DNA of 64,000 nucleotides from Fibrisoma limi BUZ 3 (GTDB lineage: Bacteria; Bacteroidota; Bacteroidia; Cytophagales; Spirosomataceae): the NCBI RefSeq assembly GCF_000296815.2, contig NZ_CAIT01000006.1:812777-876776 (forward strand), in the 5' to 3' direction. The translations under genes were made by a program, and so were the position numbers. The notes under the pieces are model-generated. The model was not told where the DNA came from. It did not search any database and worked only from the letters and a program-made list of their open reading frames with translations. Shown one piece after another: positions 21,044 to 54,092 of the stretch (the stretch's first letter is position 1; every line of letters begins with the position of its first letter).

Positions 21044-21118
21044 CCTGTCCGAAATTCGTTTAGTAGTAAGACAACCGAAGGTCCCTATTCCACTTACAGA
21101 TGTCCGCGTTTATTAGCA

Positions 21119-29048: not shown

Positions 29049-29105
29049 CAAACTCTTTATGAGAAAGCGTAACGGAGAGCCCTAAAACCTGATTAGTTGA
29101 TCGTT

Positions 29106-31852: not shown

Positions 31853-31900
31853 TACCCTTTTGACTACGCATAAACCGGGTTGAGGTTCCCCATAATCCGC

Positions 31901-33373
31901 ATGAACAACTTACCGAAAAACGGTCTTCGATTACGCTTTGCGCTTGCCTGTGTCTGTCTCTGGTCGAGCCAGATAAATGCGCAGTTTATCGACACCAGCG
32001 ACGACCGCGTTAAAACGCCTTTATCCATAAACCTGAAGCCGATCGGAACGCTGAAACCTCGTTCAACGAAGGATATTGAATCGTCGCGGATTACGGTCGG
32101 TTGCGAAACCCTCGACCGGGATTTCACCGATTTCAATGCGTACAAAGCGTACCTGCCACCGCTGGGTGTCAAGAAGATTCGGCTACAGGCGGGTTGGGCC
32201 AAGTGCGAAAAAGTAAGAGGCCAATACGACTGGGCATGGCTCGACAACATCATCAATTTTGCCGTCGCCAATGGTCTCGAACCCTGGCTGGAAACCTCGT
32301 ACGGCAATCCGATTTACGAAGGCGGAGGCCGGACGGGCCTGCTGAATAGCCTGATGACCTCGCCCGAAGGCTATGCCGCCTATGACCGCTGGGTTGAAGC
32401 CCTCGTAACGCGCTACAAAGACCGCGTGACCGAGTGGGAAATCTGGAACGAGCCGGATCATCCCATGCAGAAAATCACCGCCGAAACCACCGCCGAGTTG
32501 AACATTCGGACTGCCGATATCATCAAACGTATTCAGCCCGACGCCAAAATTGCGGCCCTGGCCCTGGCTAGCCACACCGACACGGTGTACCTCGACCGCG
32601 CGCTGAAGGTATTGGCTGAACGCAATAAGCTGGATTTATTCACTTGGGTGTCGTACCACAGTTACGCCTTCCGCCCCGAGCAATCGTACAGAGGTGTGGC
32701 CGCGTTTAAACGAACACTGGCTAAATACTCTCCGAAATTGCTGCTTCGGCAGGGCGAGAACGGTGCGCCATCGGGGTACATCCCGAGCTACGCATTGGAC
32801 AAATACTACTGGACGGAATACAGCCAGGCCAAATACGACCTGCGTCGGCTATTGGGCGATCTGGGCCGCGACATTGAAACGTCGGTGTTCACCATCATCG
32901 ACATCCGATACGGTGGCGACCCACCAGTGCTGAACATGAAAGGTCTGATTCAATCTGACCTGGACAAAACCGTCATCCGGCCGAAAGTGGCCTACTACGC
33001 GGTGCAAAACCTGGCATCCGTTTTCGACAACCGGCTTGAACTCGTTCCAAATTTCAGGGCTACCACGACAGCGAAAGAATCCGTATCCATCTTCGGGTAT
33101 CAGCATAAAGCAGGAAAGAAACAGCTCGTTACGGTCTGGCTGGACGGCAAAACACCAAATAACCTGTTCCAGACCACACCCATCGACATCACGATCGAAA
33201 ACGGTAATTTCGACAAGCCCGTCTGGGTCGATCTGATGACGGGTAAGGTGTACGATATACCAAAAAACGGCTGGAGCAAGACTGGCACAACGTACTCGTT
33301 CAGGAATGTTCCGGTGTATGATTCGCCGGCGCTGATTGCCGACGCGTCGATTTTGACAATGAGTGAAAAGTAA
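31901..33373 (+). CDS. GH39-like (clan GH-A) glycoside hydrolase, tandem copy 2
   Basis: 490 aa from ATG 31901, which gives a good signal peptide (LRFALACVCLWSSQINAQ); an ATG-less longer frame starts at 31880. Catalytic Glu184 in EWEIWNEP and Glu286 in RQGENGAP. It shares with its neighbours ETLDRDFTDF, RLQAGWAKCEK, ETSYGNPIYEGGG and the C-terminal VDLMTGKVYDIPK. It is a paralogue of copies 1 and 3. It follows copy 1 by 48 bp and precedes copy 3 by 3 bp. All key residues are intact, so the copies are probably functional and differ in substrate. Confidence 0.88.
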   Translation: MNNLPKNGLRLRFALACVCLWSSQINAQFIDTSDDRVKTPLSINLKPIGTLKPRSTKDIESSRITVGCETLDRDFTDFNAYKAYLPPLGVKKIRLQAGWAKCEKVRGQYDWAWLDNIINFAVANGLEPWLETSYGNPIYEGGGRTGLLNSLMTSPEGYAAYDRWVEALVTRYKDRVTEWEIWNEPDHPMQKITAETTAELNIRTADIIKRIQPDAKIAALALASHTDTVYLDRALKVLAERNKLDLFTWVSYHSYAFRPEQSYRGVAAFKRTLAKYSPKLLLRQGENGAPSGYIPSYALDKYYWTEYSQAKYDLRRLLGDLGRDIETSVFTIIDIRYGGDPPVLNMKGLIQSDLDKTVIRPKVAYYAVQNLASVFDNRLELVPNFRATTTAKESVSIFGYQHKAGKKQLVTVWLDGKTPNNLFQTTPIDITIENGNFDKPVWVDLMTGKVYDIPKNGWSKTGTTYSFRNVPVYDSPALIADASILTMSEK

Positions 33374-33376
33374 AGA

Positions 33377-34885
33377 ATGAAACAGCAACTGACATATCGA
33401 ACGGTTTTTGGGCTGCTCCTGCTGTTGTCGGGAATAAGCGCGCGGGCACAATCGGCAGATCATCCGGCAACGACCGACATCAAGATCGATCTTCCGCAAC
33501 TCGGTGCCATAAAGCCCCGCAGTGTGACCGACATTGAATCGTCGAACTGGCTGATTGGCTGCGAAACCCTCGACCGGGACATGGCCGACTACGAGCAGTA
33601 CAAAACCTACCTGGCTCCGCTGGGCATCAAGCGCATCCGATTACAGGCGGGTTGGGCAAAAACGGAGAAAGTGCAGGGACAGTACGACTGGGCCTGGCTC
33701 GACCGGATTATCAACGATGCCGTTCAGCGTGGTTTGCAGCCCTGGCTGGAGACTTCCTACGGCAATCCAGTCTATCCCGGTGGCGGGGGCATTAACCTGA
33801 GTGCAGGATTACCGACGTCGCCGGAAGCCCTGAAAGCCTGGGATCGTTGGGTCGAAGCCCTGGTGAAACGCTATAAGGACAAGGTTAAGGAGTGGGAGGT
33901 CTGGAACGAACCCAACTTTGGCGATAACACCATCAACACACCCGAGATGGTGGCGGATTTGAATATCCGTACCGCCGACATCATCAAACGCATTCAGCCG
34001 GAAGCCAAAATTTCGGGCCTGTCGATGGGCCATATTGACCTCGACTACGCCGACGCGTTCTTCAAAATTCTGCACCAGAAAGATAAGATGGGTCTGTTCG
34101 ACAACATGACGTATCACGACTATTTCTACAACCCCGACGCCAACTACGGGCACGTGGCCGAACTCCGGCAGGTCCTCGACAAGTATGCGCCGAACGTAAA
34201 ACTGCGGCAAGGCGAAAACGGCAGCCCTTCGTTTGGCGGCTTCGGGCGGGGCGCTCTCGGCGATTATAACTGGTCGGAGTTAACCCAGGCGAAATGGAAC
34301 ACCCGGCGCATGCTCGGCGACCTGGGCCACGACATCGAGTGTAGTATTCTGGGTATTATCGACATGAACTACGCGTCGGCTGGTAGCCCCATCACGAAAC
34401 TGAACGTCAAGGGAATCATTGAGTCAGACTCAACCAAACGAGCTATTCGCCCCAAGATGGCCTACTACGCGATGCAACACGTGGCCTCGGTATTCGACAA
34501 TTCGCTGAAACGGATTAAGTCGCTGAAACCGACGCATAACGTTAAGGCACCAACGGCTCCGGGCGAAGTGAAATACAACAAGAGCACCGACCGGAGCCTG
34601 GCCGTGTACGGCTATGAGCACAAGCAATCAAAGAAGCAGGTTTATTCCATCTGGATGAATGAATGCATACCGGCCGAATCGAATCAGACGAAACCAGTCA
34701 CGGTCACGTTCCTGAACGGCAACTTCGACAAACCGGTGTACGTCGACATCATCACCGGCCGCGTGTACGACATTCCCGCCACCGACTGGTCGAAAACCGG
34801 CACGACCTACACATTCAAAAACATACCGGTTTACGATGCGCCCATTCTGATAGCCGACGCATCGATTATTCCAACGAGCAAATGA
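33377..34885 (+). CDS. GH39-like (clan GH-A) glycoside hydrolase, tandem copy 3
   Basis: 502 aa with signal peptide (TVFGLLLLLSGISARAQ). Acid/base Glu178 in EWEVWNEPN and nucleophile Glu280 in RQGENGSP. The barrel and the C-terminal sandwich (VDIITGRVYDIPATDW) match copies 1 and 2, with an insert near residue 395 (TAPGEVKYNKSTDRSL). Its TGA overlaps the ATG of the GH115 gene as ATGA, so translation of the two is probably coupled. Confidence 0.88.
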   Translation: MKQQLTYRTVFGLLLLLSGISARAQSADHPATTDIKIDLPQLGAIKPRSVTDIESSNWLIGCETLDRDMADYEQYKTYLAPLGIKRIRLQAGWAKTEKVQGQYDWAWLDRIINDAVQRGLQPWLETSYGNPVYPGGGGINLSAGLPTSPEALKAWDRWVEALVKRYKDKVKEWEVWNEPNFGDNTINTPEMVADLNIRTADIIKRIQPEAKISGLSMGHIDLDYADAFFKILHQKDKMGLFDNMTYHDYFYNPDANYGHVAELRQVLDKYAPNVKLRQGENGSPSFGGFGRGALGDYNWSELTQAKWNTRRMLGDLGHDIECSILGIIDMNYASAGSPITKLNVKGIIESDSTKRAIRPKMAYYAMQHVASVFDNSLKRIKSLKPTHNVKAPTAPGEVKYNKSTDRSLAVYGYEHKQSKKQVYSIWMNECIPAESNQTKPVTVTFLNGNFDKPVYVDIITGRVYDIPATDWSKTGTTYTFKNIPVYDAPILIADASIIPTSK

Positions 34886-37098
34886 AGAACCCGGTCACAT
34901 ATTATCTACTAATCAGCCTGTTGCTATTGGGCGGAGCGGAGGGCTGGTGTCAGAAGCCATCGCCGTTTGTGCTGGTGGGGGCGCGGCAAACGGCGACGGT
35001 TGTAGTGGGGTCTGGCGAGCCGGAATGCGTGCGGCTGGCCGTGCAAGATTTAATCGGCGACGTACAAAAAATTACGGATCAGCAAATACGAGTTACTGCT
35101 TCAACGCCCGGCAGGTCGTACCAGAACGCCGTCATCATCGGCACAGTAGGCCGGTCTTCGGTAGTTACTCAACACCTCCCCGAAAGTCGCCAATTGACCG
35201 GAAAATGGGAGAACTACCGGGTGCAGTCGGTGGGCAGCAATCTGGTGCTGGCGGGTAGCGACGAACGCGGGACAATGTTTGCGGTGTATCATTTCATAGA
35301 ACAGTACCTCGGCGTCGACCCGCTCTACTTCTGGTCTGACCGCGAACCGGCCAAACGTACCGCATTAAGTTGGGATACCGTATCTATTACCCAGTCAACG
35401 CCGACGTTTCGGTTCCGGGGCTGGTTTATCAACGACGAAGACCTGCTGACCGAGTGGCAGCGACCCGGCGAACCGGCGGCAGGCGGCAAACGTAACATCG
35501 ACTATCCTTTTTATGGTCAGGTGGTAGCTCCGCAAACCCTGCGGCATGTGGTCGAAAGCCTTGTCCGGCTCCGGCAGAACCTGATTATCCCGGCCAGTTT
35601 CATCGACATCCGTAATCCGGCAGAGGCCGCCCTGGTGCAGGAAGCCGCCCGGCGTGGGGTGTTTGTCTCCATGCACCATGTTGAACCGATGGGCGTCAGC
35701 GCCTTTACATTCTTCAATTACTGGCGCGAAAAAGCAGGCTTGCCGCTGAATGGCAAAGGAGGCAACGACGTTCCCCTGTTTTCCTATTTCAGCAGCCGAC
35801 CGCAACTCGAAGAGGTCTGGCGCGTGTATGCTACCGAATGGGCGAAGTACCCCAATGTCATCTGGCAGATTGGTCTGCGCGGTATTGCCGACCGGCCCAT
35901 GTGGCTGGCCGACCCCGGTATTCCGCAAACCGACGCCGACCGGGGTCGACTCATCTCGGAGGCTATGCAAACCCAGATGCAGCTTATCCGACAGGTAGAC
36001 AAACGCCCGAATCCACCGATCACCACCACGCTCTGGGCCGAAGGCTCGGTGCTCAACAAAGCGGGCCACCTGAAGATTCCCGAAGGCGTTACGGTTGTTT
36101 TCTCTGATAACAGCCCCGGCTGGCGCATGCAGGCCGATTTTCGCGACACACCCCGACAACCGGGACATTCGTATGGCGTCTATTACCACCATCAGTTGTG
36201 GGGCTCCGGGCCGCATCTAACCCAGATTGTTCCACCCGCCCAGACGTATAAAGTCTTACGAGAAGTCTATGAAAAAGGCGATACCGCTTATGCCATCGCC
36301 AACATCTCGAACCTTCGTGAATTTGTGCTGGGTGCCGATGCTACAGCCAGGATGCTCACGGGCTTCAGCAACTTTCGGATCGATGTTTTCGAGCGCAACT
36401 GGTTCACAGCGCGTTACGGCGCGTCGGCAGCGCAGGTACAGCAGGCCTACCAAACGTATTTTGACGGTTTTGCCCTGAATAGCCGCACCCAGACGCCCAT
36501 TCTGATGGATGGTCAACTGCGTAGTATTGCACTGGGCCAACTGCGGGAGTTACGCCTGCAACTGACCGATTCGGCGGGGTATGCGGTTCATCTGAAGCAA
36601 CAAAAGGTAGAAACTGAGGAGAGCCGCTGGATTAAATCGGCGCTGGCCGATATGGGCAGTGAGAATCTGGATACTCAAACGCTGCTGAAACGGGTGCAGG
36701 CTCAGAAAACCGCTCACCTCCGCGCCGACTCGCTCGCCCAATTGGTGTTGCCACAACTCCCCGTAAGCGAACGTCGATTTATGGAAACCAACTTACTGGC
36801 TAACCTCGACCTGATTCTGGGGCTCGAAACTTGGCTCGAAGGCGTTCTGCAAGCACGGATTGCTGCCAACGCTAACCGGCTATCCGATGTCGAAACGAAC
36901 CTGCAACACGCCGTTGCAGCCTTCGACCAGATGCAGAAGGGCCAGCACCGAATCGCCACCGGCAAATGGCAAAACTGGTACCAGGGCGATAAAAAGATGA
37001 ATCTGGAAGAGTGCCGACGAGTTACCGAAACCATCCGAAACAAGGCATTGAGCGAAAGACCGGGCAGCCGGGCGGTGAATAAGCGAAAGAGCGGCTGA
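34882..37098 (+). CDS. Glycoside hydrolase family 115 (alpha-glucuronidase) protein
   Basis: 738 aa from the ATGA start at 34882; a longer frame upstream overlaps copy 3. Signal peptide (LLISLLLLGGAEGWCQ). GH115 features: an N-terminal domain with QNAVIIGTVG and DERGTMFAVYHFIEQYLGVDPLYFW, then FRFRGWFINDEDLLTEW, GKGGNDVPLFSYF, TTLWAEGS and VVFSDNSPGW. Many GH115 enzymes are longer because of a C-terminal domain; here the chain ends in helices, so that domain seems absent. It would remove (methyl-)glucuronic acid from xylan or arabinogalactan side chains. Confidence 0.88.
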   Translation: MKNPVTYYLLISLLLLGGAEGWCQKPSPFVLVGARQTATVVVGSGEPECVRLAVQDLIGDVQKITDQQIRVTASTPGRSYQNAVIIGTVGRSSVVTQHLPESRQLTGKWENYRVQSVGSNLVLAGSDERGTMFAVYHFIEQYLGVDPLYFWSDREPAKRTALSWDTVSITQSTPTFRFRGWFINDEDLLTEWQRPGEPAAGGKRNIDYPFYGQVVAPQTLRHVVESLVRLRQNLIIPASFIDIRNPAEAALVQEAARRGVFVSMHHVEPMGVSAFTFFNYWREKAGLPLNGKGGNDVPLFSYFSSRPQLEEVWRVYATEWAKYPNVIWQIGLRGIADRPMWLADPGIPQTDADRGRLISEAMQTQMQLIRQVDKRPNPPITTTLWAEGSVLNKAGHLKIPEGVTVVFSDNSPGWRMQADFRDTPRQPGHSYGVYYHHQLWGSGPHLTQIVPPAQTYKVLREVYEKGDTAYAIANISNLREFVLGADATARMLTGFSNFRIDVFERNWFTARYGASAAQVQQAYQTYFDGFALNSRTQTPILMDGQLRSIALGQLRELRLQLTDSAGYAVHLKQQKVETEESRWIKSALADMGSENLDTQTLLKRVQAQKTAHLRADSLAQLVLPQLPVSERRFMETNLLANLDLILGLETWLEGVLQARIAANANRLSDVETNLQHAVAAFDQMQKGQHRIATGKWQNWYQGDKKMNLEECRRVTETIRNKALSERPGSRAVNKRKSG

Positions 37099-37160: not shown

Positions 37161-38870
37161 ATGCAAACACTCCAAACCTTAGACTACTGGGCAATCGCCA
37201 TTTACATGGGGCTGATGGCGGGAATTGGCCTCTTTCTGGGGAAGTTCATCAAGAACATTGGTGACTACTTCAAGGGTGGCAACGCCATCCCGTGGGTATC
37301 GGGCGCGATCTCCAACTTCATGACCAAGTTCAGTACGTTCATGTTCGTTGCTTACGCCGGCATTGCGTACCAGCACGGCTTCGTGGCCCTGACGCTCATC
37401 TGGAGTACGGTGCTGCCCGCGCTGGTTGGGGTGGCCATTTTCGCCAAACGATGGCGACGGGCGGGAATCATGACGCCGATGGAATTCCTCGAAACGCGCT
37501 TCAACGCACCCGTCCGGCAGGTGTTTGCGTGGGCGGGGGTCTTCTTCAAGATTCTGGACAATATGGTGCGGCTCTACGCCCTCGGCCTGTTTGTCAAAAC
37601 GGCCGCTAACCTGAGTCTGGAGCAGGCGATTCTGGGCTGTGGCATCATTGTAGCGCTGTATACCATTGCCGGTGGACTATGGGCCGTAGTCGTTACGGAC
37701 GTGGTGCAGTTCATTATCCTGATGGTTGCTACGTTGATTCTGGTGCCGCTGACGATGCAGGCCGCCGGGGGGTTACCGAAGATGATGGAGACGATTCCCC
37801 AGCACTTCGACCCCTTCAACGGCCCCAAGGGTGCCCCGCTTTACCTGTCGGTGTATTACCTCATGATTCTGGTTAAATACAGCGGCAACTGGACATTCAT
37901 TCAGCGGTTCTATAGCGTCCGCGATGAACGCGCCAGCCAGAAGCAGGGCCTGCTGACGGCGGTGTTTTTCTTCTTTTTCCCGATCGTTTTTCTGTTCCCG
38001 TCGATTGCCGCCCGCGCCATTATCCCTGGCCTGGAGAACCCCGAAATGGCCTACGTCAGCGTGTGCCTGAAGCTCCTGCCCGAAGGCATCATGGGCCTGA
38101 TGGTCGCGGCCATGTTCGCGGCTACAATGTCGGTGCTCAGTGGTGAATACAACGTAACGGCGGGGGTTCTGACCCGCGACATCTACCAGCGGCTATTCAA
38201 CCCCAACGCAACGGACAAAGAGACACTCTGGGTCGGGCGGATGATGACCTTGCTGCTCGGTGGACTGATTACGGTAGGTGCGCTGTTTGTCGGAGGTTTT
38301 GGGGGTGCTTTTGAAGCCAACAAGCTGTTCACGGGTCTGTTTGCCATTCCGATGACGCTGCCACTGGTGCTGGGTATCGTATTGAAGCGTCCGCAGCCCT
38401 GGGGGGCTCTCGCTACAGTGTTGGCCGGAATGATTATTGGCCTGCTTCTCAATGCCACCCCGTCGATTTCCTGGGAGATGGCGACCCTCATCGAGATTTT
38501 AACCTGCGTGGCCGTCTTCCTCCTGTCGGGACTCATCGAATCAAAGGATGCCCTATACCGGCTGCGCGTCGAAGCCTTTTTCCGCCGTCTATCCACACCC
38601 TTAACTGAAGCCGAAAAGCCGAAAGAAGACCCGATTTTCATGCGTTCGATGAACCGGCTCTATGCGGTTGCCCTGTCCGTAACGGGGGGCTTGTTCATGA
38701 CCATGAGCGGGCCATCTTTGGGCGAAACCAGCGGCAAGTTTGCGTTCGGTGCCGGGGTCATCTGCCTGATATTATCGGGCATTCTGTGGTACTGGACGCG
38801 CGAAACGAACAGAACAAAATCCCGTAGGGATGACCTGCTAGTAGCAGAAGATGCCCGCAAAAGCACCTAA
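37161..38870 (+). CDS. Sodium:solute symporter (SSS family)
   Basis: 569 aa from the ATG at 37161; the upstream in-frame start is TTG. About 13-14 hydrophobic helices, with the SSS segments LDYWAIAIYMGLMAGIGLFLGK, FLETRFNAPVRQVFAW and LMVAAMFAATMSVLSGEYN (the core SSS motif). It should carry an organic anion or sugar across the inner membrane with Na+. In this locus the likely cargo is the mono- or disaccharide (possibly a uronate) released by the periplasmic glycosidases. It lies 62 bp after GH115. Confidence 0.93.
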   Translation: MQTLQTLDYWAIAIYMGLMAGIGLFLGKFIKNIGDYFKGGNAIPWVSGAISNFMTKFSTFMFVAYAGIAYQHGFVALTLIWSTVLPALVGVAIFAKRWRRAGIMTPMEFLETRFNAPVRQVFAWAGVFFKILDNMVRLYALGLFVKTAANLSLEQAILGCGIIVALYTIAGGLWAVVVTDVVQFIILMVATLILVPLTMQAAGGLPKMMETIPQHFDPFNGPKGAPLYLSVYYLMILVKYSGNWTFIQRFYSVRDERASQKQGLLTAVFFFFFPIVFLFPSIAARAIIPGLENPEMAYVSVCLKLLPEGIMGLMVAAMFAATMSVLSGEYNVTAGVLTRDIYQRLFNPNATDKETLWVGRMMTLLLGGLITVGALFVGGFGGAFEANKLFTGLFAIPMTLPLVLGIVLKRPQPWGALATVLAGMIIGLLLNATPSISWEMATLIEILTCVAVFLLSGLIESKDALYRLRVEAFFRRLSTPLTEAEKPKEDPIFMRSMNRLYAVALSVTGGLFMTMSGPSLGETSGKFAFGAGVICLILSGILWYWTRETNRTKSRRDDLLVAEDARKST

Positions 38871-39049: not shown

Positions 39050-39766
39050 ATGAATAACCTCGAAAACAACCGGATCGCCGGCCGAACCATTTTCATCACC
39101 GGCGCGTCGGGCGGCATTGGAAAAGCGACCGCGCTGCAACTCCTTGATCAGGGTGCTAACGTATTTGATTTTAGCCGTACCCACCGTTTAACTGATAACG
39201 TTCAGCATGAAAACCTGCGTTCGTATACTGGCGACGTGAGCGCAGAAGCCGACGTTCAGGCCGGGTTTGCGGCTTGTCTGGACGCCTTCGGCACCGTCGA
39301 TGTACTGATCAACAACGCGGGCATGGGCGTACTGACCACCGACCTTTCGCAAACCGATCTGGCGACCTACGAGCAGATGGTCAACGTGAACATGCGGGGC
39401 GTGTTTCTCTGTAACCGGGAAGCACTCAGGGTGATGAAACTCAAAAAACAGGGCCACATCATTACGGTTATTTCTATGGCCGGGCAACGTACAAACCCCA
39501 ATGCGCCGGTTTATGCGGCTTCGAAGTTTGGCGCACGGGGACTGAGCAGCGGCCTGGCCGACCAGGTGATTAAAGAAGGTATTAAGGTCACCGACGTTAA
39601 CCCCGGTCCGACCGACAGCAACTATTGGGGCGACCGCAAGGTGCCACGGGAGAAATTCCTGAAAGTAGAGGACGTAGCGAACGTCATCACGTTTGTACTC
39701 AATCAGCCGGATTATGTCCTGATCCGCGAAATCAATTTTGACAACATGAAATTTTTGGCGCAATGA
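39050..39766 (+). CDS. SDR-family NAD(P)-dependent oxidoreductase
   Basis: 238 aa cytoplasmic short-chain dehydrogenase. It has FITGASGGIGKATALQL, NNAGMGVLTTD, the active-site YAASK with the upstream VISMAG strand, and VNPGPTDSNYWGD. Its stop overlaps the RraA-like gene start (ATGA), so both are translated together. A role in reducing or oxidising a sugar-acid intermediate is inferred from the operon; the substrate is not visible. Confidence 0.9.
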   Translation: MNNLENNRIAGRTIFITGASGGIGKATALQLLDQGANVFDFSRTHRLTDNVQHENLRSYTGDVSAEADVQAGFAACLDAFGTVDVLINNAGMGVLTTDLSQTDLATYEQMVNVNMRGVFLCNREALRVMKLKKQGHIITVISMAGQRTNPNAPVYAASKFGARGLSSGLADQVIKEGIKVTDVNPGPTDSNYWGDRKVPREKFLKVEDVANVITFVLNQPDYVLIREINFDNMKFLAQ

Positions 39767-40452
39767 AATCCAACGGCACACACCACACATCGCCTTTCCC
39801 GATACCCGTTTCAGAGATGCGCGAACGGTATTTACAGCTTTACACGGGGGCAGTTAACGACGTTCTGCGGTTTACGTATAAACTGCACGCTACCAGTTTA
39901 CCGGCCTGCTACGCCCCATTACGCGAGGAGATGAAGATGGCCGGCATGGCCTTCACCGTCAAAGGTGCGCCCGACATCACCACCGACGGTGAGTTCGAAA
40001 TGCGGGCGCAGATGCTGGAGGATCTGCACAAAGATTCAGTCGTAGTCTGGGACTGCACGGGCGATACGGTTACCTCACAATGGGGCGAAGTGATGACCAT
40101 GGCGGCTATTAAAGCCGGTTGTCGGGGTGCGTTGATCAACGGCATCCGGGACACAAAGGCCATTCTGGATCAGGGCTTTCCAGTGTTCTACAAGTACAAA
40201 ACGAGCACCGGTATGCTGGGCCGTTTCCGGATGTATTACTACCAGAAACCGGTGCAGATCGGTGAGGTGATCATTCAGCCCGGCGACTGGATTTTCGGCG
40301 ACATTGACGGTGTCATCGCTATCCCGCACGCTATTGCGTACGATGTGCTGGTCGCGGCCGAAAAGATTATTCACAAGGAAGTAGGCATTAAAGAAATGGT
40401 CGAAAGCGGTATGCGCCCGACTGAAGTAGTCAAAAACGGCGGTTATTTCTGA
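39763..40452 (+). CDS. RraA-like / class II pyruvate aldolase-fold protein
   Basis: 229 aa. It belongs to the RraA/dimethylmenaquinone-methyltransferase-like family (PF03737): a core GVMTMAA-like segment (GEVMTMAAIKAGCRGALINGIRD), then GFPVFYK, VIIQPGDWIFGDIDGVIAIPH. The Gly...Arg-Asp arrangement in this fold is the metal and pyruvate site in HMG/CHA aldolases, while true RraA only binds RNase E. Given catabolic neighbours on both sides, coupled by ATGA and TGATG overlaps, an aldolase-like role is more likely than RNA regulation. This is inference. Confidence 0.85.
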   Translation: MKSNGTHHTSPFPIPVSEMRERYLQLYTGAVNDVLRFTYKLHATSLPACYAPLREEMKMAGMAFTVKGAPDITTDGEFEMRAQMLEDLHKDSVVVWDCTGDTVTSQWGEVMTMAAIKAGCRGALINGIRDTKAILDQGFPVFYKYKTSTGMLGRFRMYYYQKPVQIGEVIIQPGDWIFGDIDGVIAIPHAIAYDVLVAAEKIIHKEVGIKEMVESGMRPTEVVKNGGYF

Positions 40453-42578
40453 TGGAAGCCATTGCAACGCTCAGGTTGTTTCTATCTGGCGACGAGAGAG
40501 ACGCCATCCTGACCAGCCAGGACCCGGTCATCAAACGGTTTCGTCAGGCGCTCAGGCAGCGGGTGACGAGTCGTCTGACGGTGCCCGGCTTGCAGGCTGA
40601 GAGCCTTTCGCTTGGTTGGTGGTACCCCTGCGCCGAATACCTCTCCGACGCGGCCATGCAGCATGCCCTGGAGCCGACCGAGGAACTGGCGGCCTGGCTA
40701 CGTAGCACCACGCTGACCATTGCTCGTCGGCCGGTTGGCGATTGGGTAGGGCCGTGGTTTCGCAGCCATGCCGAACCGTTGACGGGCCATCTGGAGACAG
40801 CCCACGTCTGCTGGGGTGTCGCGGCCGTACTGGACCTGGCGGGTGACGTATTCACGGATGCCGAGCAGGCCGAAGTTCGGGAGATGCTCTACAAGAAAGG
40901 CATAGTGCTGTGTCGGCGGTGGCTTCAGAAGAACAGCCATTTGGCTAACTGGCGGGGTATCATGGCGTCGGGCGCGCTGGTGGCGTCGGCTGCGTTGGGT
41001 GCGGCCGGCGATCCGGCGGCCGGCGATCCGGCGGCCGGCGATCCGGATGACAATCTGCTGGATGAATTTACGCCGGAATTGGCCCGCATGGCCCAGGCGT
41101 TTCAGCCGGATGGTAGCTACGGCGAATCGTTGCAGTACGGCAACTATCTGGCTAACGCCCTGATGCTGGCGTATGAATCACTGGTGCGTAAGTATCCAGT
41201 GCAGGCCACTCAGCTTGACGTCAGCGCGTACAGCCGGGGTATGAACTGGATGGCGCAGAGCATGTTGTATCGCAAACCGATGCAAGCATGGAATATCCAT
41301 TCCGGGAGCGATGAGCCACGGGCGCGGGCCGTAAACTTCAACGATTCGGCGGCCCTGTTCCGGCCTTCGGGCGATTTGCTGCTGCACATTGCGGTTCGCT
41401 ACGACGACCCGCTGCAGGCTGGCCTGGCCCGCTGGTTATTTCAGGAGTATTACGAGCCAGGCCCAACGCAGGGGCCACACGACCTGGCGAGCTTCGGCAT
41501 GCGCAACGACTGGGGTTTCCTGACCCTGCCGCTGCTGACAAAAGCTGGTCAATCAGTATCGCCCGCAGCGGCTGATCTGCCCCTGACAACCTCATTTTCC
41601 AACGGTAATGCGTTCGTTCGGGATGCCTGGCGGGGTCGATCGGTACTGGCCGTTCAGGGCGGCAACAACGACGGTGTTTATGCGCCCGGCCACCTACAGG
41701 GCGATTTAAACAGCTTTATGCTGGTTCACAATCGGGAACGGCTGCTGGTCGATCCGGGCCACAGTTGCTACAGAAACCTGATTCATGGTCTTGAAAGCAG
41801 CACGCAGACGCACAATACCTGCACTTTTCTGGTCGAACAGGATTCGCTTGGCTTGCAGGAGGATTTGGCTAAAATCAAGCTGCTCGAACAACGAAATGTC
41901 CTCTCCCGGCGATTGATCCGTACCGATGGCCACGTGGGGCCACCCGTTGAACGTGGAGGTCGTCTGTTGCACTGCCAGCGGGTCGGTGATGTATCGTGGG
42001 TGGTGTCGGAGGTGGCCGCTTCCTATGGGGCACCGATCCAGGAGTTTACCCGCTGCTGGTTGCAGGTGGGTCCGCACGTTACGTTCGTGATCGACCGTAT
42101 TCGGGCAACTGAACCCGTCCGAACCGTTTGGAACTGGTTGCTCAACAACCGCGATGGGCAATCGGTCATTCGTACGAATGGCGGTGAGCTGGTACTCAAT
42201 CGCCACCAGAGCGGTCTGCGGTTATGCCAGGTTGGACCAGCCGCCTTATCCGGCCCCGTTTATGCCTACGTTCACGATGCCTACCATCCCGAACCGGCTC
42301 AGTTGGGCGAAGGGCTGCCCGGTAGTGGCCTGTTGTTCCGGCATACCGACAACCAGGCGTCTACCAACGTATCCCGGCTTCACGTCCTGATTGCCGACGA
42401 CGTAGCCGAACTCGATGAGTGGCGCATTACACAAGACGATGAGCAGATAACTGTAGAGAAACAGTCGCAACGTATTCAACTGACAGGTTCGTTTGACGCT
42501 GCCATACGGGTACAGGTGACAAATGCCAACAACCAGGTCAGTATAACCGAAGGCTCGTCTGGTTTTGTGGTAAAATAA
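40452..42578 (+). CDS. Heparinase II/III-family protein without signal peptide
   Basis: 708 aa, start coupled to the previous stop (TGATG). An N-terminal alpha/alpha toroid (about 1-330) has LAWWYP-like LGWWYPC, NSHLANWRGIMASGALVAS and SYGESLQYGNYLANALML. The C-terminal beta-sandwich has HLQGDLNSFMLVHNRERLLVDPGHSCY and TQTHNT, typical of heparinase II/III lyases. It starts MEAIATLRLFLSG with no signal peptide or lipobox, so it should act in the cytoplasm on an imported oligosaccharide. Residues 181-195 hold three GDPAA-type repeats from a 15-bp tandem repeat. Substrate unknown. Confidence 0.87.
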   Translation: MEAIATLRLFLSGDERDAILTSQDPVIKRFRQALRQRVTSRLTVPGLQAESLSLGWWYPCAEYLSDAAMQHALEPTEELAAWLRSTTLTIARRPVGDWVGPWFRSHAEPLTGHLETAHVCWGVAAVLDLAGDVFTDAEQAEVREMLYKKGIVLCRRWLQKNSHLANWRGIMASGALVASAALGAAGDPAAGDPAAGDPDDNLLDEFTPELARMAQAFQPDGSYGESLQYGNYLANALMLAYESLVRKYPVQATQLDVSAYSRGMNWMAQSMLYRKPMQAWNIHSGSDEPRARAVNFNDSAALFRPSGDLLLHIAVRYDDPLQAGLARWLFQEYYEPGPTQGPHDLASFGMRNDWGFLTLPLLTKAGQSVSPAAADLPLTTSFSNGNAFVRDAWRGRSVLAVQGGNNDGVYAPGHLQGDLNSFMLVHNRERLLVDPGHSCYRNLIHGLESSTQTHNTCTFLVEQDSLGLQEDLAKIKLLEQRNVLSRRLIRTDGHVGPPVERGGRLLHCQRVGDVSWVVSEVAASYGAPIQEFTRCWLQVGPHVTFVIDRIRATEPVRTVWNWLLNNRDGQSVIRTNGGELVLNRHQSGLRLCQVGPAALSGPVYAYVHDAYHPEPAQLGEGLPGSGLLFRHTDNQASTNVSRLHVLIADDVAELDEWRITQDDEQITVEKQSQRIQLTGSFDAAIRVQVTNANNQVSITEGSSGFVVK
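41001..41045 (+). repeat. Perfect 15-bp tandem repeat, three copies, in frame
   Basis: The unit GCGGCCGGCGATCCG occurs three times exactly (41001-41015, 41016-41030, 41031-41045) and encodes AAGDP three times in a loop of the heparinase-like protein. The identical codons indicate recent slippage. Confidence 0.95.
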
Positions 42579-42583
42579 TCGCC

Positions 42584-43366
42584 ATGAAAATTAAGCTGCT
42601 TGCCCTGCTTGCTCTTGTGTTGAGTACATCCCTGAAGCAGGATGCACCAACCCGCTTACGGTTGTTTCTGCTCATCGGGCAGTCCAATATGGCGGGTCGG
42701 GGGCTCCCCGAAGCGCAGGATCAGCAGCCCGTCGACCGGGTCTGGATGTTCACAAAAGAGGATACTTGGGTGCCTGCCCGCGAACCGATGCACTTCGATA
42801 AGCCCGCGGTGGTGGGGGTTGGGCCAGGGTTTGCGTTCGGCAGGCGGCTGGCCGAAGCGTTTCCAAACGAAAACATAGGCCTGATTCCCTGCGCCGTCGG
42901 TGGATCAGGTATCGATGTCTGGCAGCCGGGCGCGTACTACGAACCAACAAAGTCGTATCCCTACGACGATGCGCTACGTCGGGCGAAGAAAGCGTTGGGT
43001 AACGGTGAACTGGCCGGTATTCTGTGGCACCAGGGTGAAAGCGATTCGCAACCCGAAAAAGCGCCGGCCTACGGCGCTAAGCTGGCCGAACTGATCCAGC
43101 GGCTACGTCGGGAGTTGAATGCCCCGAATGTACCATTTGTCGTCGGGACGCTGGGCGATTTTATTGTCAGGCGAAACCCGGACGCAGGAGTGATCAACGC
43201 AACGCTGCAACAGATGCCCGGTCGGGTACCTGACACGTATTGCGTCGTATCGGAAGGGCTGACGCACAAAGGCGATTCCACCCATTTTGATACCCCGTCT
43301 GCCCGAACGCTGGGCGTGCGGTATGCCGACGTATTTATTCAGAAAAAACTGGTGACCAAACAATGA
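42584..43366 (+). CDS. SASA-type (sialate O-acetylesterase-like) SGNH carbohydrate esterase
   Basis: 260 aa with signal peptide (LLALLALVLSTS). SGNH hydrolase of the SASA/DUF303 type: nucleophile Ser34 in LIGQSNMAGRG, oxyanion Gly in VGGSGIDVW, LWHQGESD (block III), and the Asp231/His234 pair in GDSTHFD. It would remove acetyl groups from the glycan in the periplasm so that the glycosidases can work. It lies 5 bp after the heparinase gene and overlaps the VOC gene by ATGA. Confidence 0.9.
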   Translation: MKIKLLALLALVLSTSLKQDAPTRLRLFLLIGQSNMAGRGLPEAQDQQPVDRVWMFTKEDTWVPAREPMHFDKPAVVGVGPGFAFGRRLAEAFPNENIGLIPCAVGGSGIDVWQPGAYYEPTKSYPYDDALRRAKKALGNGELAGILWHQGESDSQPEKAPAYGAKLAELIQRLRRELNAPNVPFVVGTLGDFIVRRNPDAGVINATLQQMPGRVPDTYCVVSEGLTHKGDSTHFDTPSARTLGVRYADVFIQKKLVTKQ

Positions 43367-43764
43367 ATGAAACGCTTTTCTGGGGTGTCGACCACCCCGC
43401 CGTAGCCGCCGATGATGTGGAGAAGCTGGCCGATTGGTACTGTACCGTACTAGGGTATAAAAAGTGGTTCCGACACGAGAAACCCGTCTGGATGCTTGTG
43501 GCACCCGATGATACATTGCTGGAAATCATGCCCAAAGACGACACCGCCCGACCAGTACGCACGACCTGGACACCCGGCTGGTCGCATCTGGCGCTGCGCG
43601 TGTCGAATATTGAACAGGCCATTGCCTGGCTCGATCAACACGGGGTTACCTGGGGTGGTGAGCTAACGAACGCCATTGGCGGTGGCCTGGTCCGCAACTT
43701 CTTCGATCCGGACGGCAACATGCTCCAAGTTCTGGAACGCCCGCTTCCGATTACGAATCCTTAA
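43363..43764 (+). CDS. VOC-family (glyoxalase/dioxygenase fold) protein
   Basis: 133 aa, one pair of beta-alpha-beta-beta-beta modules. It has WGVDHPAVAADDVEKLADWYCTVLG at the start with a possible metal-ligand His, SHLALRVSNIEQAIAWLDQHGV in the middle, and NFFDPDGNMLQVLE at the end with the family Glu ligand. It is cytoplasmic and may be a lyase, epimerase or ring-cleaving enzyme. Its start overlaps the esterase stop. Confidence 0.85.
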   Translation: MNETLFWGVDHPAVAADDVEKLADWYCTVLGYKKWFRHEKPVWMLVAPDDTLLEIMPKDDTARPVRTTWTPGWSHLALRVSNIEQAIAWLDQHGVTWGGELTNAIGGGLVRNFFDPDGNMLQVLERPLPITNP

Positions 43765-43776
43765 ACTATTACCCCA

Positions 43777-44790
43777 ATGCAAGCAGCTTATTACACCGGC
43801 AATCGCCGTTTTGACATACAACCCGCTACTACCCTACCCCCACAACCGGGCGAAGTACGCCTGAAGGTCGCGTATTGTGGCGTATGCGGCACCGACGTGC
43901 ATATTTATCACGGCAGCATGGACAAGCGGGTTCGCATTCCGCAAGTCGTCGGCCACGAAGTTTCGGGTGAAATCGACGCCGTTGGCGAAGGCGTATCCGG
44001 CTGGCAGGTCGGCGACCGCGTAGCCGTACGACCCCTACAGCCCGGCCTTGAAGACCCCTCCGACAACGATCAACGCCATATCGGCAAGAACCTGAAATTT
44101 ATTGGTATCGATACCCCGGGCGGTATGCAGGCCTACTGGAACGTACCTGCCTATACGTTGCATCGACTACCCGAGAACCTGCCGTTGACGTTGGGGGCGA
44201 TGATCGAGCCGCTGGCTGTAGCTTGCCATGATGTGCGGCTGGGCGAGTTGAAAGCGGGCGAAAACGCAGTGGTTATTGGTGGAGGCCCGATCGGCGTACT
44301 GATTGCACTTGTGGCCCGACAGGTTGGGGCCAACGTACTCATTTCCGAAGTCAATCCGGCGCGGTTACGGCTGGCCGAATCGCTCGGTTTGTCAACCGTA
44401 AATCCCAAAGAACAGGAGCTGGTGGCTGCGGTAGAAGCATTTACCAACGGAGCGATGGCTGACGTGGTTTTTGAAGTATCGGGTGTTCAGGCCGGTGTTA
44501 CGGCCATGACACAGTTGCCCCGCGCCCGTGGTCGCATCGTCATGGTCGCGATTCACAGCGAGCCGAAATCAGTTGACCTATTCCGTTTCTTCTGGCGGGA
44601 AATCAAGCTGATTGGCGCGCGGGTTTACGAACCGGAGGATTTCGATGAAGCGATTCGGTTGGCCGCATCGGGCGAACTACCGCTGGAAAGCCTGATTACG
44701 CAGGTGTCGCCGTTGGAACACGTACAGCAGGTTTTTGAAACGATTGACAACAATCCGGCCGGGATGAAATATTTACTTCAGATCGACTGA
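43777..44790 (+). CDS. Zinc-type alcohol/polyol dehydrogenase (MDR family)
   Basis: 337 aa. N-terminal catalytic domain with Cys37 in YCGVCGTDVHIYHG and His60-Glu61 in VVGHEVSG, the catalytic zinc positions, and GDRVAVRP. The four-Cys structural-zinc lobe usual near residues 90-105 is absent. The Rossmann part has VVIGGGPIGVLIALVARQVG. The closest general type is sorbitol/threonine dehydrogenase-like, acting on a sugar alcohol or sugar acid hydroxyl. It is the last gene of the operon and is followed by a terminator about 70 bp downstream. Confidence 0.9.
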   Translation: MQAAYYTGNRRFDIQPATTLPPQPGEVRLKVAYCGVCGTDVHIYHGSMDKRVRIPQVVGHEVSGEIDAVGEGVSGWQVGDRVAVRPLQPGLEDPSDNDQRHIGKNLKFIGIDTPGGMQAYWNVPAYTLHRLPENLPLTLGAMIEPLAVACHDVRLGELKAGENAVVIGGGPIGVLIALVARQVGANVLISEVNPARLRLAESLGLSTVNPKEQELVAAVEAFTNGAMADVVFEVSGVQAGVTAMTQLPRARGRIVMVAIHSEPKSVDLFRFFWREIKLIGARVYEPEDFDEAIRLAASGELPLESLITQVSPLEHVQQVFETIDNNPAGMKYLLQID

Positions 44791-44857: not shown

Positions 44858-44889
44858 ATGCCAGGGGAGCCCCTGGCATCTTTTGTTTT
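44858..44889 (+). terminator. Strong intrinsic terminator ending the catabolic operon
   Basis: ATGCCAGGGG (44858-44867) pairs perfectly with CCCCTGGCAT (44870-44879) and is followed by TTTTGTTTT. It lies just after the alcohol dehydrogenase gene. Confidence 0.88.
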
Positions 44890-45167: not shown

Positions 45168-46820
45168 ATGAAACCAACGAGACGTAATTTTTTACAATCA
45201 CTGGGCGTTGGCGTAGCCGGCATGGGCATTGCGCACGAATCAACGGCCGCGCAACCGCCTAAGGTGGCCAAATCCGCCGGTGATGATCAGATTCTATTCG
45301 TAGGCGACACCATTGCCATCGCCAATACCGAACACGGGAAAGTCCGGGGATTCATCCTCCGGGGAATTCACCAGTTTTTGGGCATTCCCTACGGTGCCGA
45401 TACGTCGGGCAAGAATCGGTTCATGCCCCCGCAAAAACCCACCCCCTGGACCGACGTTCGACCCGCGCTTTGGTGGGGTAACTCGGCTCCGCAGATCATG
45501 GAGAAACGGTACGCCAACGCATATGCCTCGTTTGTCGACCACTGGAATTACGATGACGTATCGGAAGACTGTCTGAAGCTGAACGTCTGGACGCCCGCCC
45601 TGGACACCCAGAAACGCCCCGTTGTGGTCTGGCTGCACGGCGGAGGCTTTACCAACGGCAACGGCATCGAACAGGATGGCTACCACGGCGAAAATCTGGC
45701 GCGTCTGGGAAATCTGGTATTCTGTTCGCTCAACCACCGACTCGGCCCGCTGGGTTATACCGATCTGAAAGCTGCCGGGGGCCATGCTGCGTCGGGCAAC
45801 GTCGGGAACCTGGACATGGTAGCCGCGCTGGAATGGGTCAAAAACAACATTGCTAATTTCGGTGGCGACCCGAACAACGTGACGATCATTGGCCAGTCGG
45901 GTGGCGGGGCTAAGGTGACTACGTTGATGAATATGCCGTCGGCGAAGGGGTTGTTTCACAAGGCAGTAGCGTTGAGTGGCACCTCCCTGGCTGGCGCCAA
46001 CAAGGAGTACGCCGAAAAACTGGGAATGACCGTGCTGGAAGAAGCGGGCCTGAAACCCGGCGAAGTGGACAAACTCCAGCAGATACCCTGGCGGCAGTAC
46101 ATCGACATCGCCAACCGGGCCGTTGAGAAGATGACCGCCGAAGCCAGACGGATGAGTATCCAGCGGGGCGGCTTTTCGCCCGTAGCCGACGGGGTTGCGC
46201 TGAGCGAAGGACCTTTCTTCAGCGATGCCAACCACTTCTCGGCCGACATTCCGCTGCTGATCTGCTCAACCTTCCATGAGCAGAGCCCGAGTCGGACGGA
46301 TGCAGCGCTGGAAACCATCACGCTCGCTGAAGTAAAAGAGAAAGTTAAACCACGGTTTGGCGATAAAGCGGACGAAATCGTGGATGCGTACGCGAAGAAT
46401 TTCCCGAAGGCCCGTCCAATCGAAATCTGGTCGCTGGTCGTTTCCAACCGAAAGAACGCCATTGCTGCCGCCGACGCAAAAGCCGCGCAGCAAAAAGCCC
46501 CCGTTTACGTAGCGTGGTTTGGCTGGCAGCCGCCCCTGTTCGATGGCCGGATGCGGGCTTTTCACTGCGACGATATCTGTTTCTGGTTCTACAACACCGA
46601 CTTGATGCTGACGCACACGGGCGGTGGCAAACGTCCCCGGGCGCTGTCTGAAAAAATGGCCAAGTCGTTTATAAACTTCGCCAGAACCGGTAATCCAAAC
46701 GGCGGGGGTTTACCAACCTGGAAACCGTATTCCAGTCAGAACGGCGAGACTATGGTTCTGGACGACGCCCCCATGCTGGTCAATGATCCGGACCGGGAAG
46801 CCCGGAAAACGCTGGCTTAG
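45168..46820 (+). CDS. Type-B carboxylesterase, Tat-exported
   Basis: 550 aa alpha/beta hydrolase of the carboxylesterase/lipase family. A Tat signal (TRRNFLQSLGVGVAGMG) is followed by GKVRGFILRGIHQFLGIPYG, SEDCLKLNVWTP, oxyanion hole HGGGFTNGNG (157-166) and nucleophile Ser244 in IIGQSGGGAKV; the C-terminal His is probably in RAFHCDDI. It hydrolyses esters in the periplasm, possibly acyl or feruloyl groups on plant polysaccharide. It stands alone with a large hairpin after its stop. Confidence 0.92.
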   Translation: MKPTRRNFLQSLGVGVAGMGIAHESTAAQPPKVAKSAGDDQILFVGDTIAIANTEHGKVRGFILRGIHQFLGIPYGADTSGKNRFMPPQKPTPWTDVRPALWWGNSAPQIMEKRYANAYASFVDHWNYDDVSEDCLKLNVWTPALDTQKRPVVVWLHGGGFTNGNGIEQDGYHGENLARLGNLVFCSLNHRLGPLGYTDLKAAGGHAASGNVGNLDMVAALEWVKNNIANFGGDPNNVTIIGQSGGGAKVTTLMNMPSAKGLFHKAVALSGTSLAGANKEYAEKLGMTVLEEAGLKPGEVDKLQQIPWRQYIDIANRAVEKMTAEARRMSIQRGGFSPVADGVALSEGPFFSDANHFSADIPLLICSTFHEQSPSRTDAALETITLAEVKEKVKPRFGDKADEIVDAYAKNFPKARPIEIWSLVVSNRKNAIAAADAKAAQQKAPVYVAWFGWQPPLFDGRMRAFHCDDICFWFYNTDLMLTHTGGGKRPRALSEKMAKSFINFARTGNPNGGGLPTWKPYSSQNGETMVLDDAPMLVNDPDREARKTLA

Positions 46821-46839
46821 TTACTGCGCCGTTACAGTC

Positions 46840-46897
46840 CCCCGGATGCTACTGGTAAGCGATTGAATCAACCTCCTTCAGTAGTGGTCCGGGGTTT
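46840..46897 (+). terminator. Long hairpin, probable terminator after carboxylesterase
   Basis: Outer stem CCCCGGA/TCCGGGG (46840-46846, 46888-46894) and inner stem CTACTG/CAGTAG (46849-46854, 46879-46884), followed only by TTT. The weak T tract lowers certainty. Confidence 0.5.
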
Positions 46898-46967
46898 GGC
46901 ATTTACCTTCGTTTCAATCGGCTCATTAAACTCACTATCTTCAACCTAATACGTACTGCGGACGCCC

Positions 46968-47855
46968 ATGAACCCAATAAAAAAAGAAGACCTCAAACAG
47001 GAAGTGTTTGACCTCTATGATGACTACGCCCACAACCGTATCGACCGGCGTGAGTTTACCCAAAAGCTGTCGGCCTACGCCGTGGGCGGCATTACGGTAG
47101 CTTCTCTGATGAGTTTTCTCATGCCCGACTACAAGGGTGGTATGCAGATCAAGGTGGACGATCCTCGCCTGAAGTCGGATTATGTTACGTACCAGTCTCC
47201 CAAGGGGGGCGGCTCCATCAAAGCCCTGCTGTCGAAGCCGGCCGATGCGAAAAAACCGTTGGGCGGAATCATCGTGGTTCATGAAAACCGAGGGTTGAAT
47301 CCCCACATTGAAGACGTAGGCAGACGGGCCGCTCTGGCCGGTTTTATTTCCATTGCGCCCGATGCCCTAAGCCCGCTGGGAGGCTATCCGGGCAATGATG
47401 ACGCTGGCCGCGAACTGCAAAGCAAACGAAACCGCGACGAGATGCTACAGGATTTTGTCGCGGCTTTTGATTATCTGAAAAGCAACAAAGACTGCAACGG
47501 CAACATAGGAGTCGTTGGGTTTTGCTTTGGCGGGTGGATTGCCAATATGATGGCGGTACGTATTCCCAATCTGGCAGCTTCTGTACCGTTTTATGGCGGT
47601 CAGCCGACGGCTCAGGACGTTCCTGCCATCAAAGCCCCGCTGCTGTTGCATTACGCAGCCCTCGACACGCGGGTGAATGAGGGCTGGCCGGCCTATGAAG
47701 CCGCCCTGAAAGCCAATAACAAGGAATACACGGCTCACATGTATCCCAACGCTAATCACGGCTTTCATAATGACACCACCCCGCGGTATGACAAGGCAGC
47801 CGCCGAATTGGCCTGGAAACGAACCATCGATTTCTTTAAGGAAAAGCTGGCGTAG
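46968..47855 (+). CDS. Dienelactone hydrolase family protein
   Basis: 295 aa. It has an N-terminal extension with RREFTQKLSAYAVGGITVASLM, a possible Tat-like or membrane signal, though 25 residues precede the Arg pair. The hydrolase domain has IIVVHENRGLNPHIEDV and the catalytic triad Cys186 (VGFCFGGW), Asp233 (ALDTRVNEGW) and His264 (NANHGFHND). The Cys nucleophile is typical of dienelactone hydrolases. In Bacteroidota, relatives with this extension are common and of unknown substrate. It is a single gene with a terminator beyond it. Confidence 0.9.
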   Translation: MNPIKKEDLKQEVFDLYDDYAHNRIDRREFTQKLSAYAVGGITVASLMSFLMPDYKGGMQIKVDDPRLKSDYVTYQSPKGGGSIKALLSKPADAKKPLGGIIVVHENRGLNPHIEDVGRRAALAGFISIAPDALSPLGGYPGNDDAGRELQSKRNRDEMLQDFVAAFDYLKSNKDCNGNIGVVGFCFGGWIANMMAVRIPNLAASVPFYGGQPTAQDVPAIKAPLLLHYAALDTRVNEGWPAYEAALKANNKEYTAHMYPNANHGFHNDTTPRYDKAAAELAWKRTIDFFKEKLA

Positions 47856-53645: not shown

Positions 53646-54092
53646 CCGATGATGGCTTGGTGACCGAATAGCCGATGGTTGATTTGACAGGCGCCAGCCC
53701 AAAAGCCGAAAGATAGGTAGCTGACCTGATCGTTCCGCATAAAATATGCAATTGTTAGTATTGGTGATTACGGTGCGCCCCGATAAACCAGCCTGATCTA
53801 CCACTGGCGAAAGGACGGATGCCAACGCTAGGTAAGCCTGCCCGCTTCGGCACCGATGGCGCGTAGTCGGGCGGTATCGAGACGAGGTCGGCGTTGAACG
53901 TAAATTGATCGGTAATCTGCACACTTCAGGGGCGTACAGTCCTGCATGGAGTTCGTTAACGTTGCCGTACTATACGGGTAAAAGTGCTTCGGCACAATGA
54001 CTTACAGACCACTAACTTTATAGCGATGGGGCAGAAGATGGCCTGAAACTGGATGCGTAGACTGCGGGACTCCCTCCTCGTTCCTGCTGGAA
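53646..54092. other. Intergenic region, possible gene remnant
   Basis: About 450 bp between ROK and GH43. A stretch at about 53766-53930, minus strand, reads as FTFNADLVSIPPDYAPSVPKR in one frame and looks protein-like, but it has no start and soon stops. It may be a gene remnant. No other feature seen. Confidence 0.35.

Follow-up and report, generated by a model that had tools for sequence, protein, structure and literature searches.

What does an RraA-like protein do among genes that probably serve the breakdown of a uronic acid-containing glycan? The question is raised by a locus of Fibrisoma limi BUZ 3 (contig NZ_CAIT01000006.1; genome 7.6 Mb), which we analyzed within a 64-kb window, that is, the whole stretch of DNA studied; all coordinates are positions in this window. 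At 39050-44790, behind a sodium:solute symporter (SSS) gene, lie genes for a short-chain dehydrogenase/reductase (SDR), an RraA-like protein (hereafter RraA), a heparinase II/III-type lyase, a SASA-type esterase, a vicinal oxygen chelate (VOC) protein and a zinc-type alcohol dehydrogenase (ADH). The original prediction, made from the DNA letters, was that imported oligosaccharide is cut by the lyase in the cytoplasm, oxidized or reduced by the dehydrogenases and split to pyruvate by RraA acting as a class II aldolase. We find that the cassette is a real, conserved catabolic unit, present in several phyla. The reading we favor, with slightly less than even confidence, is that it constitutes the intracellular part of a polysaccharide utilization locus, in which a uronic-acid oligosaccharide would be degraded by a route not needing KduI.

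Gene content and conservation of the cassette

Open reading frames, Pfam matches and gene junctions confirm the predicted coupled set behind the symporter. The domains found in the six products are, in gene order, SDR, RraA-like, Hepar_II_III_C, SASA, Glyoxalase (VOC) and ADH_N/ADH_zinc_N. Judging from the coordinates, the SDR/RraA and SASA/VOC pairs overlap by 4 nt and the RraA/lyase pair by 1 nt; gaps of 5 nt (lyase/SASA) and 12 nt (VOC/ADH) complete the cassette, and 179 nt lie between the end of the symporter gene and the start of the SDR gene. While the cassette occupies the predicted range, the functional unit is larger: the cassette is the distal end of a locus that spans 22427-44790, and one of its products, the SASA esterase, is probably exported. 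The genes central to the argument are as follows.

23288-24058, minus strand: KduD-like SDR (2-dehydro-3-deoxy-D-gluconate 5-dehydrogenase; TIGR01832, 325.4 bits, cut-off 338.85)
37161-38870, plus strand: SSS symporter (PF00474; start ATG at 37161)
39050-39766, plus strand: SDR, putative C1 oxidoreductase of 5-keto-4-deoxyuronate (DKI) (Pfam; substrate predicted)
39763-40452, plus strand: RraA-like protein (PF03737, 91.8 bits)
40452-42578, plus strand: heparinase II/III-type lyase with a PL15/PL35-like fold (Pfam Hepar_II_III_C; model fold)
42584-43366, plus strand: SASA-type carbohydrate esterase (Pfam; export read by eye)
43363-43764, plus strand: VOC (glyoxalase-fold) protein with invariant H11/E54/H75 (Pfam, alignment), accessory
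43777-44790, plus strand: zinc-type ADH, putative 2-keto-3-deoxy-L-galactonate 5-dehydrogenase (Pfam, locus context)

Of 99 genomes (the host and its relatives), 12, among them the host, have a close RraA homolog (74-100% identity); one of the 12, G014, carries the gene split across two contigs. The lyase (E<1e-200) and the SDR (E≤1e-45) are found in exactly the same 12 genomes. The probability of this 12-of-12 overlap is 1e-15 by a calculation that assumes independent genomes, which they are not. Nine more genomes have weak lyase-like matches (E 1e-6 to 5e-4). Where SDR or ADH genes are numerous, the SDR, ADH and KduD searches scored part of the candidates, up to 28, 21 and 60, respectively. 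The closest named record to RraA is from Fibrisoma montanum (96%; the host's own records were possibly excluded from the search).

Using RraA as the query, we gathered 51 named loci, all of which therefore contain RraA by construction. They belong mostly to Bacteroidota; the others come from Planctomycetota and from metagenome-assembled genomes (MAGs) of the PVC group, Neomarinimicrobiota, Spirochaetia and an unassigned lineage. Within the DNA available for each locus (E≤1e-10, at least 40% identity), the SDR is present in 49 loci, the lyase in 47, ADH and SSS in 43 each, VOC in 40, KduD in 17, and SASA and IclR in 11 each. The SDR immediately precedes RraA in 48 of the 51, which, along with the shared 12 genomes, places the gene set beyond chance. 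In the loci outside Bacteroidota (L087-L098) RraA is 60-76% identical to the window protein; their placement on the tree takes two label changes, they may go back to one origin, and transfer could have run in either direction. A literature search in one library returned no paper on RraA in polysaccharide utilization, on RraA together with KduD or, among the titles listed, on this cassette.

Locus L055 (Flavobacterium sp. SUN052, 8.1-Mb genome) has a Spirosoma-like cassette without the lyase; the name is possibly wrong or the assembly mixed. A protein of ~390-400 residues recurs beside the cassette, forming a 19-locus cluster (representative L055:3287-4489) in which we placed by eye L088:13141-14307, a protein without a Pfam match.

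The lyase

A phmmer search with the lyase gave no PDB match at E≤0.001. We relied on a structural model built from a 40-row alignment (pLDDT 89.1, pTM 0.92). Its best Foldseek matches are the polysaccharide lyase (PL) family 15 alginate lyase Atu3025, PL35 GAGases and dermatan sulfate epimerase, the closest of these alignments showing 14-16% identity. A profile search aligns parts of the lyase with the PL35 enzyme GAGase VII (E 3.9e-7). According to the accessible text of PMC12088678, the catalytic triad of GAGase VII is Asn187/Tyr241/His397. Residues N166, Y229 and H414 of the lyase, invariant in all 40 rows, align with this triad, given a 14-residue numbering offset that we deduce between the chain and the paper. 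The fold and the Asn/Tyr/His triad of PL35 are thus both found, while full-length sequence membership of PL35 is not, the profile match being partial and Pfam giving Hepar_II_III_C only.

Since the fold and the aligned invariant triad are those of beta-eliminases and no signal peptide is visible by eye, the lyase is likely an intracellular uronate beta-eliminase that probably makes an unsaturated uronate. An epimerase with the same fold may be the alternative. The protein probably represents an unassigned, new lyase family. As to its substrate, glycoside hydrolase (GH) genes of the cassette loci, namely GH115 in the window, GH28 in L088 and GH88 (the unsaturated glucuronyl hydrolase family) beside RraA in two distant loci, L091 and L093, suggest plant-type uronate glycans. 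A bolder prediction, given the GH115 gene in the locus, is that the lyase may eliminate methanol from 4-O-methylglucuronate; we know of no description of 4-O-methylglucuronate catabolism.

Oxidoreductases and a predicted route without KduI

The KduD-like SDR has KduD as its best model, just under the cut-off; a search of the host at E≤1e-70, in which 60 of 92 candidates were scored, showed no other such place. Its location in the locus makes the dehydrogenases point towards 2-keto-3-deoxy-D-gluconate (KDG). The PDB relatives of the cassette SDR (and of the VOC protein) are too generic for naming a substrate, and phmmer with the ADH gave no match at E≤1e-45. Outside the cassette, six full-length ADH homologs (E≤1e-60) are present in five genomes; a seventh place, the contig-end fragment G033:C105, is probably the rest of that genome's cassette gene and was left out. 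Homologs of GH117 and anhydrogalactonate cycloisomerase are encoded in five of the six loci, and a KduD homolog adjoins the ADH also in five; L111 has the ADH+KduD pair without GH117, L113 has GH117 without KduD. The L113 proteins match solved structures closely (GH117 to 3p2n, E 2.8e-187; cycloisomerase to 5xd7, E 2.5e-187). In bona fide anhydrogalactose loci the ADH+KduD pair is therefore found in four of five. As described in the accessible part of PMC5943477, agarolytic bacteria oxidize 2-keto-3-deoxy-L-galactonate (L-KDGal) at C5 to a 2,5-diketo acid, which is then reduced to D-KDG. By analogy, the cassette ADH and KduD would catalyze the same conversion.

The following route emerges. The symporter would import a short uronate glycoside, from which the PL35-like lyase would release by beta-elimination a 4,5-unsaturated uronate that opens to DKI. 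The SDR would act on the C1 aldehyde of DKI, reduction yielding L-KDGal and oxidation yielding 2-keto-3-deoxyhexarate (KDGR). Zn-ADH would oxidize C5 of L-KDGal to give the 2,5-diketo acid, which the KduD-like SDR would re-reduce to D-KDG, so that the two enzymes together invert C5. D-KDG would pass to the KdgK-like kinase and 2-keto-3-deoxy-6-phosphogluconate (KDPG) aldolase encoded elsewhere in the genome. We infer every substrate and reaction of this route, building on the observed gene order, conservation, co-occurrence, lyase fold, aligned active-site residues and ADH+KduD context. An SDR is a fitting catalyst for C1 reduction of DKI, because a reductase of 4-deoxy-L-erythro-5-hexoseulose uronate (DEHU) of Sphingomonas sp. 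A1 is an SDR, according to a title cited in PMC8563752. With L-KDGal made from DKI by the SDR and taken over by ADH and KduD, KduI would be unnecessary.

We examined the distribution of KduI and KduD in 44 cassette genomes, the host's and those of 43 named loci (all except L055, L082, L084, L085, L086, L087, L098 and L101). A KduD homolog is present in 43 of them, whereas KduI (PF04962) is detected in 31, the host included, and not in the other 13. Within the locus DNA examined, 12 of these 13 have the SDR and 12 have the ADH; one of the 13 is a complete chromosome, ZRK34 (L094). At E≤1e-10, no KduI, KdgK or KDPG-aldolase homolog was found in the locus DNA of any of the 51 loci.

The original prediction had named a complete classical KDG pathway, induced instead, as one of two outcomes that would refute it. 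As to presence, the genes do occur elsewhere in the host: glucuronate isomerase, UxuA, tagaturonate reductase, KDPG aldolase and KduI score over their cut-offs and a KdgK-like kinase scores below.

The RraA-like protein

RraA matches nine NCBIfam models, in each case under the cut-off. For aldolases of 4-hydroxy-4-methyl-2-oxoglutarate/4-carboxy-4-hydroxy-2-oxoadipate (HMG/CHA), it reaches 62.4 of 304.5 bits with TIGR02798 and 64.6 of 179 bits with PRK09262, the best aldolase match. HMG/CHA aldolases carry the motif D-x20-R-D; at this place RraA (P0005) has, counted by eye, E109-x19-R129-D130, with the R129-D130 pair invariant in all 21 rows. The nearest solved chain, 5ir2 (E 4.1e-54), was deposited as 'Cellulase' and gives no function. 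It is an RraA-family protein, by eye closest to the clade of paralogs from L042-L045, and its name is probably wrong.

The paralogous RraA proteins share 33-51% identity and were examined in eight loci. An enolase-superfamily gene is present in six of these, and an SDR, a major facilitator superfamily (MFS) transporter and a GH2 gene in seven, with the provisos that L050 has only a GH2 piece, that L042 has no enolase within its 15 kb and that some loci are cut by contig ends. For the enolase-superfamily protein of L043 the closest model is glucarate dehydratase, at 149.8 bits far under the cut-off of 828.7. These loci look like 2-keto-3-deoxy-acid contexts too, and the clades L042-L047 and L049 possibly represent a second undescribed sugar-acid route. 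GH10 genes lie near the paralogous RraA in six of the eight loci.

How far, then, does the aldolase idea hold? In its full form it has the dehydrogenases produce a keto-deoxy acid, which RraA would cleave in the manner of a class II aldolase; the products would be pyruvate and a C3 aldehyde, and no kinase would take part. Family membership with the invariant R129-D130 pair, the constant SDR-RraA pairing, the absence of KduI, KdgK and KDPG-aldolase homologs from the 51 loci and the contexts of the paralogs, in four of which no other aldolase was recognized by eye, all argue for it. On the other hand, the aldolase model scores are far under cut-off, E-x19-R-D stands in place of D-x20-R-D, KDPG aldolases (PF01081) occur in all 49 cassette genomes searched (L084 and L101 were left out), and the scheme would leave ADH and KduD superfluous. 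We regard it as somewhat unlikely. The PF01081 result also led us to reject the idea that RraA replaces a missing KDPG aldolase.

The only characterized RraA-family enzyme that we found in a lyase pathway, FlDet (LC519890) of Flavobacterium sp. UMI-01, is a dehydratase/decarboxylase rather than an aldolase: as reported in the accessible text of PMC8563752, it acts on KDGR and is inactive on KDG, DEHU, KDPG and 4-hydroxy-2-oxoglutarate. A rather unlikely oxidative alternative follows this precedent: the SDR would oxidize DKI to KDGR, and RraA would convert this by dehydration and decarboxylation into alpha-ketoglutaric semialdehyde, the counterpart of what FlRed and FlDet achieve with the alginate epimer. 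That FlRed acts in both directions (same text, where a His-tag is said to abolish its oxidizing activity) is in line with it, and the enolase-superfamily genes of the paralogous loci are nearest to glucarate dehydratase, though far under its cut-off; should KDGR be their product, the substrate would be a common one. However, no aldehyde dehydrogenase (ALDH) gene was detected in the 51 loci with one agar-locus ALDH query (E≤1e-40), and no host ALDH passes the cut-off of the alpha-ketoglutaric semialdehyde dehydrogenase model NF042993 (three matches, the best with 364.7 bits, cut-off 770). The host result tells against the FlDet-like option, although the model may miss type II enzymes such as FlDeg.

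RraA might also act early and take the part of KdgF, converting the unsaturated uronate to DKI by ring opening or tautomerization. A linear scheme of lyase, RraA, SDR, ADH and KduD would use each core gene once, and RraA-fold enzymes perform pyruvate-enolate chemistry. Nevertheless, we know of no RraA-family member with such an activity and the ring also opens without an enzyme, so that we give this scheme little credence.

Of the original prediction, import, a lyase without visible signal peptide and dehydrogenases working with RraA as one catabolic unit stand, being backed by conservation and by the beta-eliminase fold and active site; the aldolase step was not borne out by the PRK09262 score or by the FlDet precedent. 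For RraA as such, a pyruvate aldolase is still the foremost single candidate, albeit a doubtful one. A FlDet-like KDGR dehydratase/decarboxylase and some other function altogether appear less probable and equally so, and a ring-opening or tautomerase step comes last. As the constant partner of the SDR, RraA most likely takes a 3-deoxy-2-keto acid that the SDR makes. If a dual-acting SDR supplied ADH/KduD as well as RraA, every core gene would have a use.

The SASA esterase and the VOC protein

The SASA N-terminus has, by eye, a signal-peptide-like stretch, and therefore the esterase is probably exported. The VOC protein occurs in 17 of the 99 genomes, compared with 12 for the core. Of its eight places outside the cassette we read seven (G014:C570 was left out). 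It lies directly 3' of SASA in four of these (L115, L118, L119 and L120); in L119 KduD is near the pair, and in L121 VOC is near a KDPG-aldolase-like gene. We treated the SASA/VOC pair as accessory.

Could VOC nevertheless replace KduI as the aldose-ketose isomerase, making SDR and ADH unnecessary for C5 inversion? Its invariant H11, E54 and H75 resemble VOC metal ligands and it is present in 40 of the 51 loci, but in six of the 13 KduI-negative genomes the locus DNA examined has no VOC, and the protein is both commoner than the core and a follower of SASA in non-cassette loci. We consider such a replacement very unlikely. A general role of VOC as KduI substitute was rejected on the KduI-negative genomes and its wider occurrence.

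Weighing the proposed KduI-independent route

Several observations weigh against the favored route from DKI through L-KDGal to D-KDG. Locus context, rather than a characterized ortholog, is the basis of the ADH assignment. Gene content is not uniform: ADH is absent in eight of the 51 loci, some of them short; L093 has RraA, ADH and KduD without SDR or lyase; and L088, L090 and L096 have SDR, RraA and lyase without ADH or KduD in the locus DNA examined. Two of the 43 KduD matches are partial (G112, internal stop; G137, contig end) and G143 (L096) has no KduD at E≤1e-70. The KduI-negative genomes are mostly MAGs or drafts of unreported completeness. The host itself carries KduI, hence the bypass is not obligatory there. 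With ADH and KduD draining L-KDGal, an RraA aldolase acting on this compound would be a competing branch, and the ALDH scores given above count on the same side.

Taken to its full extent, the favored route would be a complete undescribed pathway for unsaturated uronates, in which a new lyase family leads to DKI and the SDR both reduces and oxidizes it, the ADH/KduD half ending in KDG and the product of the RraA half being cleaved or decarboxylated, with self-balanced redox, no KduI, and spread between Bacteroidota and Planctomycetota. This is a speculative and rather improbable extension. If right, the favored route itself would explain how bacteria lacking KduI could use unsaturated uronates, assign a metabolic role to a subfamily of RraA proteins for which the family models used give no more than the fold, and add a likely new uronate lyase family.

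Other genes of the locus and its surroundings

The remaining features of the locus are listed below.

22427-23161, minus strand: IclR-family regulator (Pfam IclR_C; nearest NCBIfam model KdgR, PRK15090, 82.2 bits, cut-off 275)
24333-27434, plus strand: SusC-like TonB-dependent receptor (Pfam)
27454-28926, plus strand: SusD-like protein (Pfam)
29097-30419, plus strand: protein between the SusD and GH39-like genes (no Pfam or NCBIfam match)
30434-31852, plus strand: GH39-like glycosidase a (PF01229, 29.6 bits, cut-off 26)
31880-33373, plus strand: GH39-like glycosidase b (PF01229, 38 bits)
33377-34885, plus strand: GH39-like glycosidase c (PF01229, 33.2 bits)
34882-37098, plus strand: GH115-family protein, by family alpha-glucuronidase (PF15979, 175.7 bits; likely start ATG at 34882)
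44858-44879, plus strand: terminator-like hairpin with a T-rich tail, just 3' of ADH

Ten terminator-like sites were found, compared with 8.2 expected by chance; the one at 44858-44879 has the longest stem of the ten. A carboxylesterase and a YghX-like dienelactone hydrolase (45168-47855) come after it; beyond these, the minus strand encodes a GH43 glycosidase and a ROK-family protein (52077-55298). An extracytoplasmic function (ECF) sigma factor/FecR pair lies upstream of the locus (20033-21793, minus strand).

Comparison with known systems

The lyase shares its fold and aligned catalytic triad with the PL15 and PL35 lyases (Atu3025 and the GAGases), at very low sequence similarity. RraA resembles the HMG/CHA aldolases, RraA-fold class II enzymes, in its domain and R-D pair, though with model scores below cut-off.

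Compared with the 3,6-anhydro-L-galactose catabolism of PMC5943477, as far as its accessible text goes, ADH (57-61%) and KduD (71-73%) homologs stand side by side in four of five GH117/cycloisomerase loci. In contrast to those loci, ADH and KduD here accompany a lyase, an SDR and RraA, not a cycloisomerase or (three loci) an aldehyde dehydrogenase. With the dual DEHU pathway of Flavobacterium sp. UMI-01 (FlRed/FlDet/FlDeg), as presented in the accessible text of PMC8563752, the cassette has in common a DEHU oxidoreductase and an RraA-family enzyme after an exo-acting lyase. There, however, fldet lies ~51 kb from the FlRed cluster, while here the SDR and RraA genes overlap; no FlDeg-like gene was seen in the cassette, and FlDet was compared by description only.

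The KduI/KduD-KdgK-KDPG aldolase pathway has a counterpart in the KduD-like reductase of the locus; KduI, a KDPG aldolase and a KdgK-like kinase have their genes at other places in the host genome. The cassette differs from it in that the locus DNA of the 51 loci showed no KduI, KdgK or KDPG aldolase homolog at E≤1e-10, in the extra SDR, Zn-ADH and RraA, and in that 13 of the 44 cassette genomes have no detectable KduI. The cassette is probably a variant of the unsaturated-uronate pathway with a candidate step by RraA.

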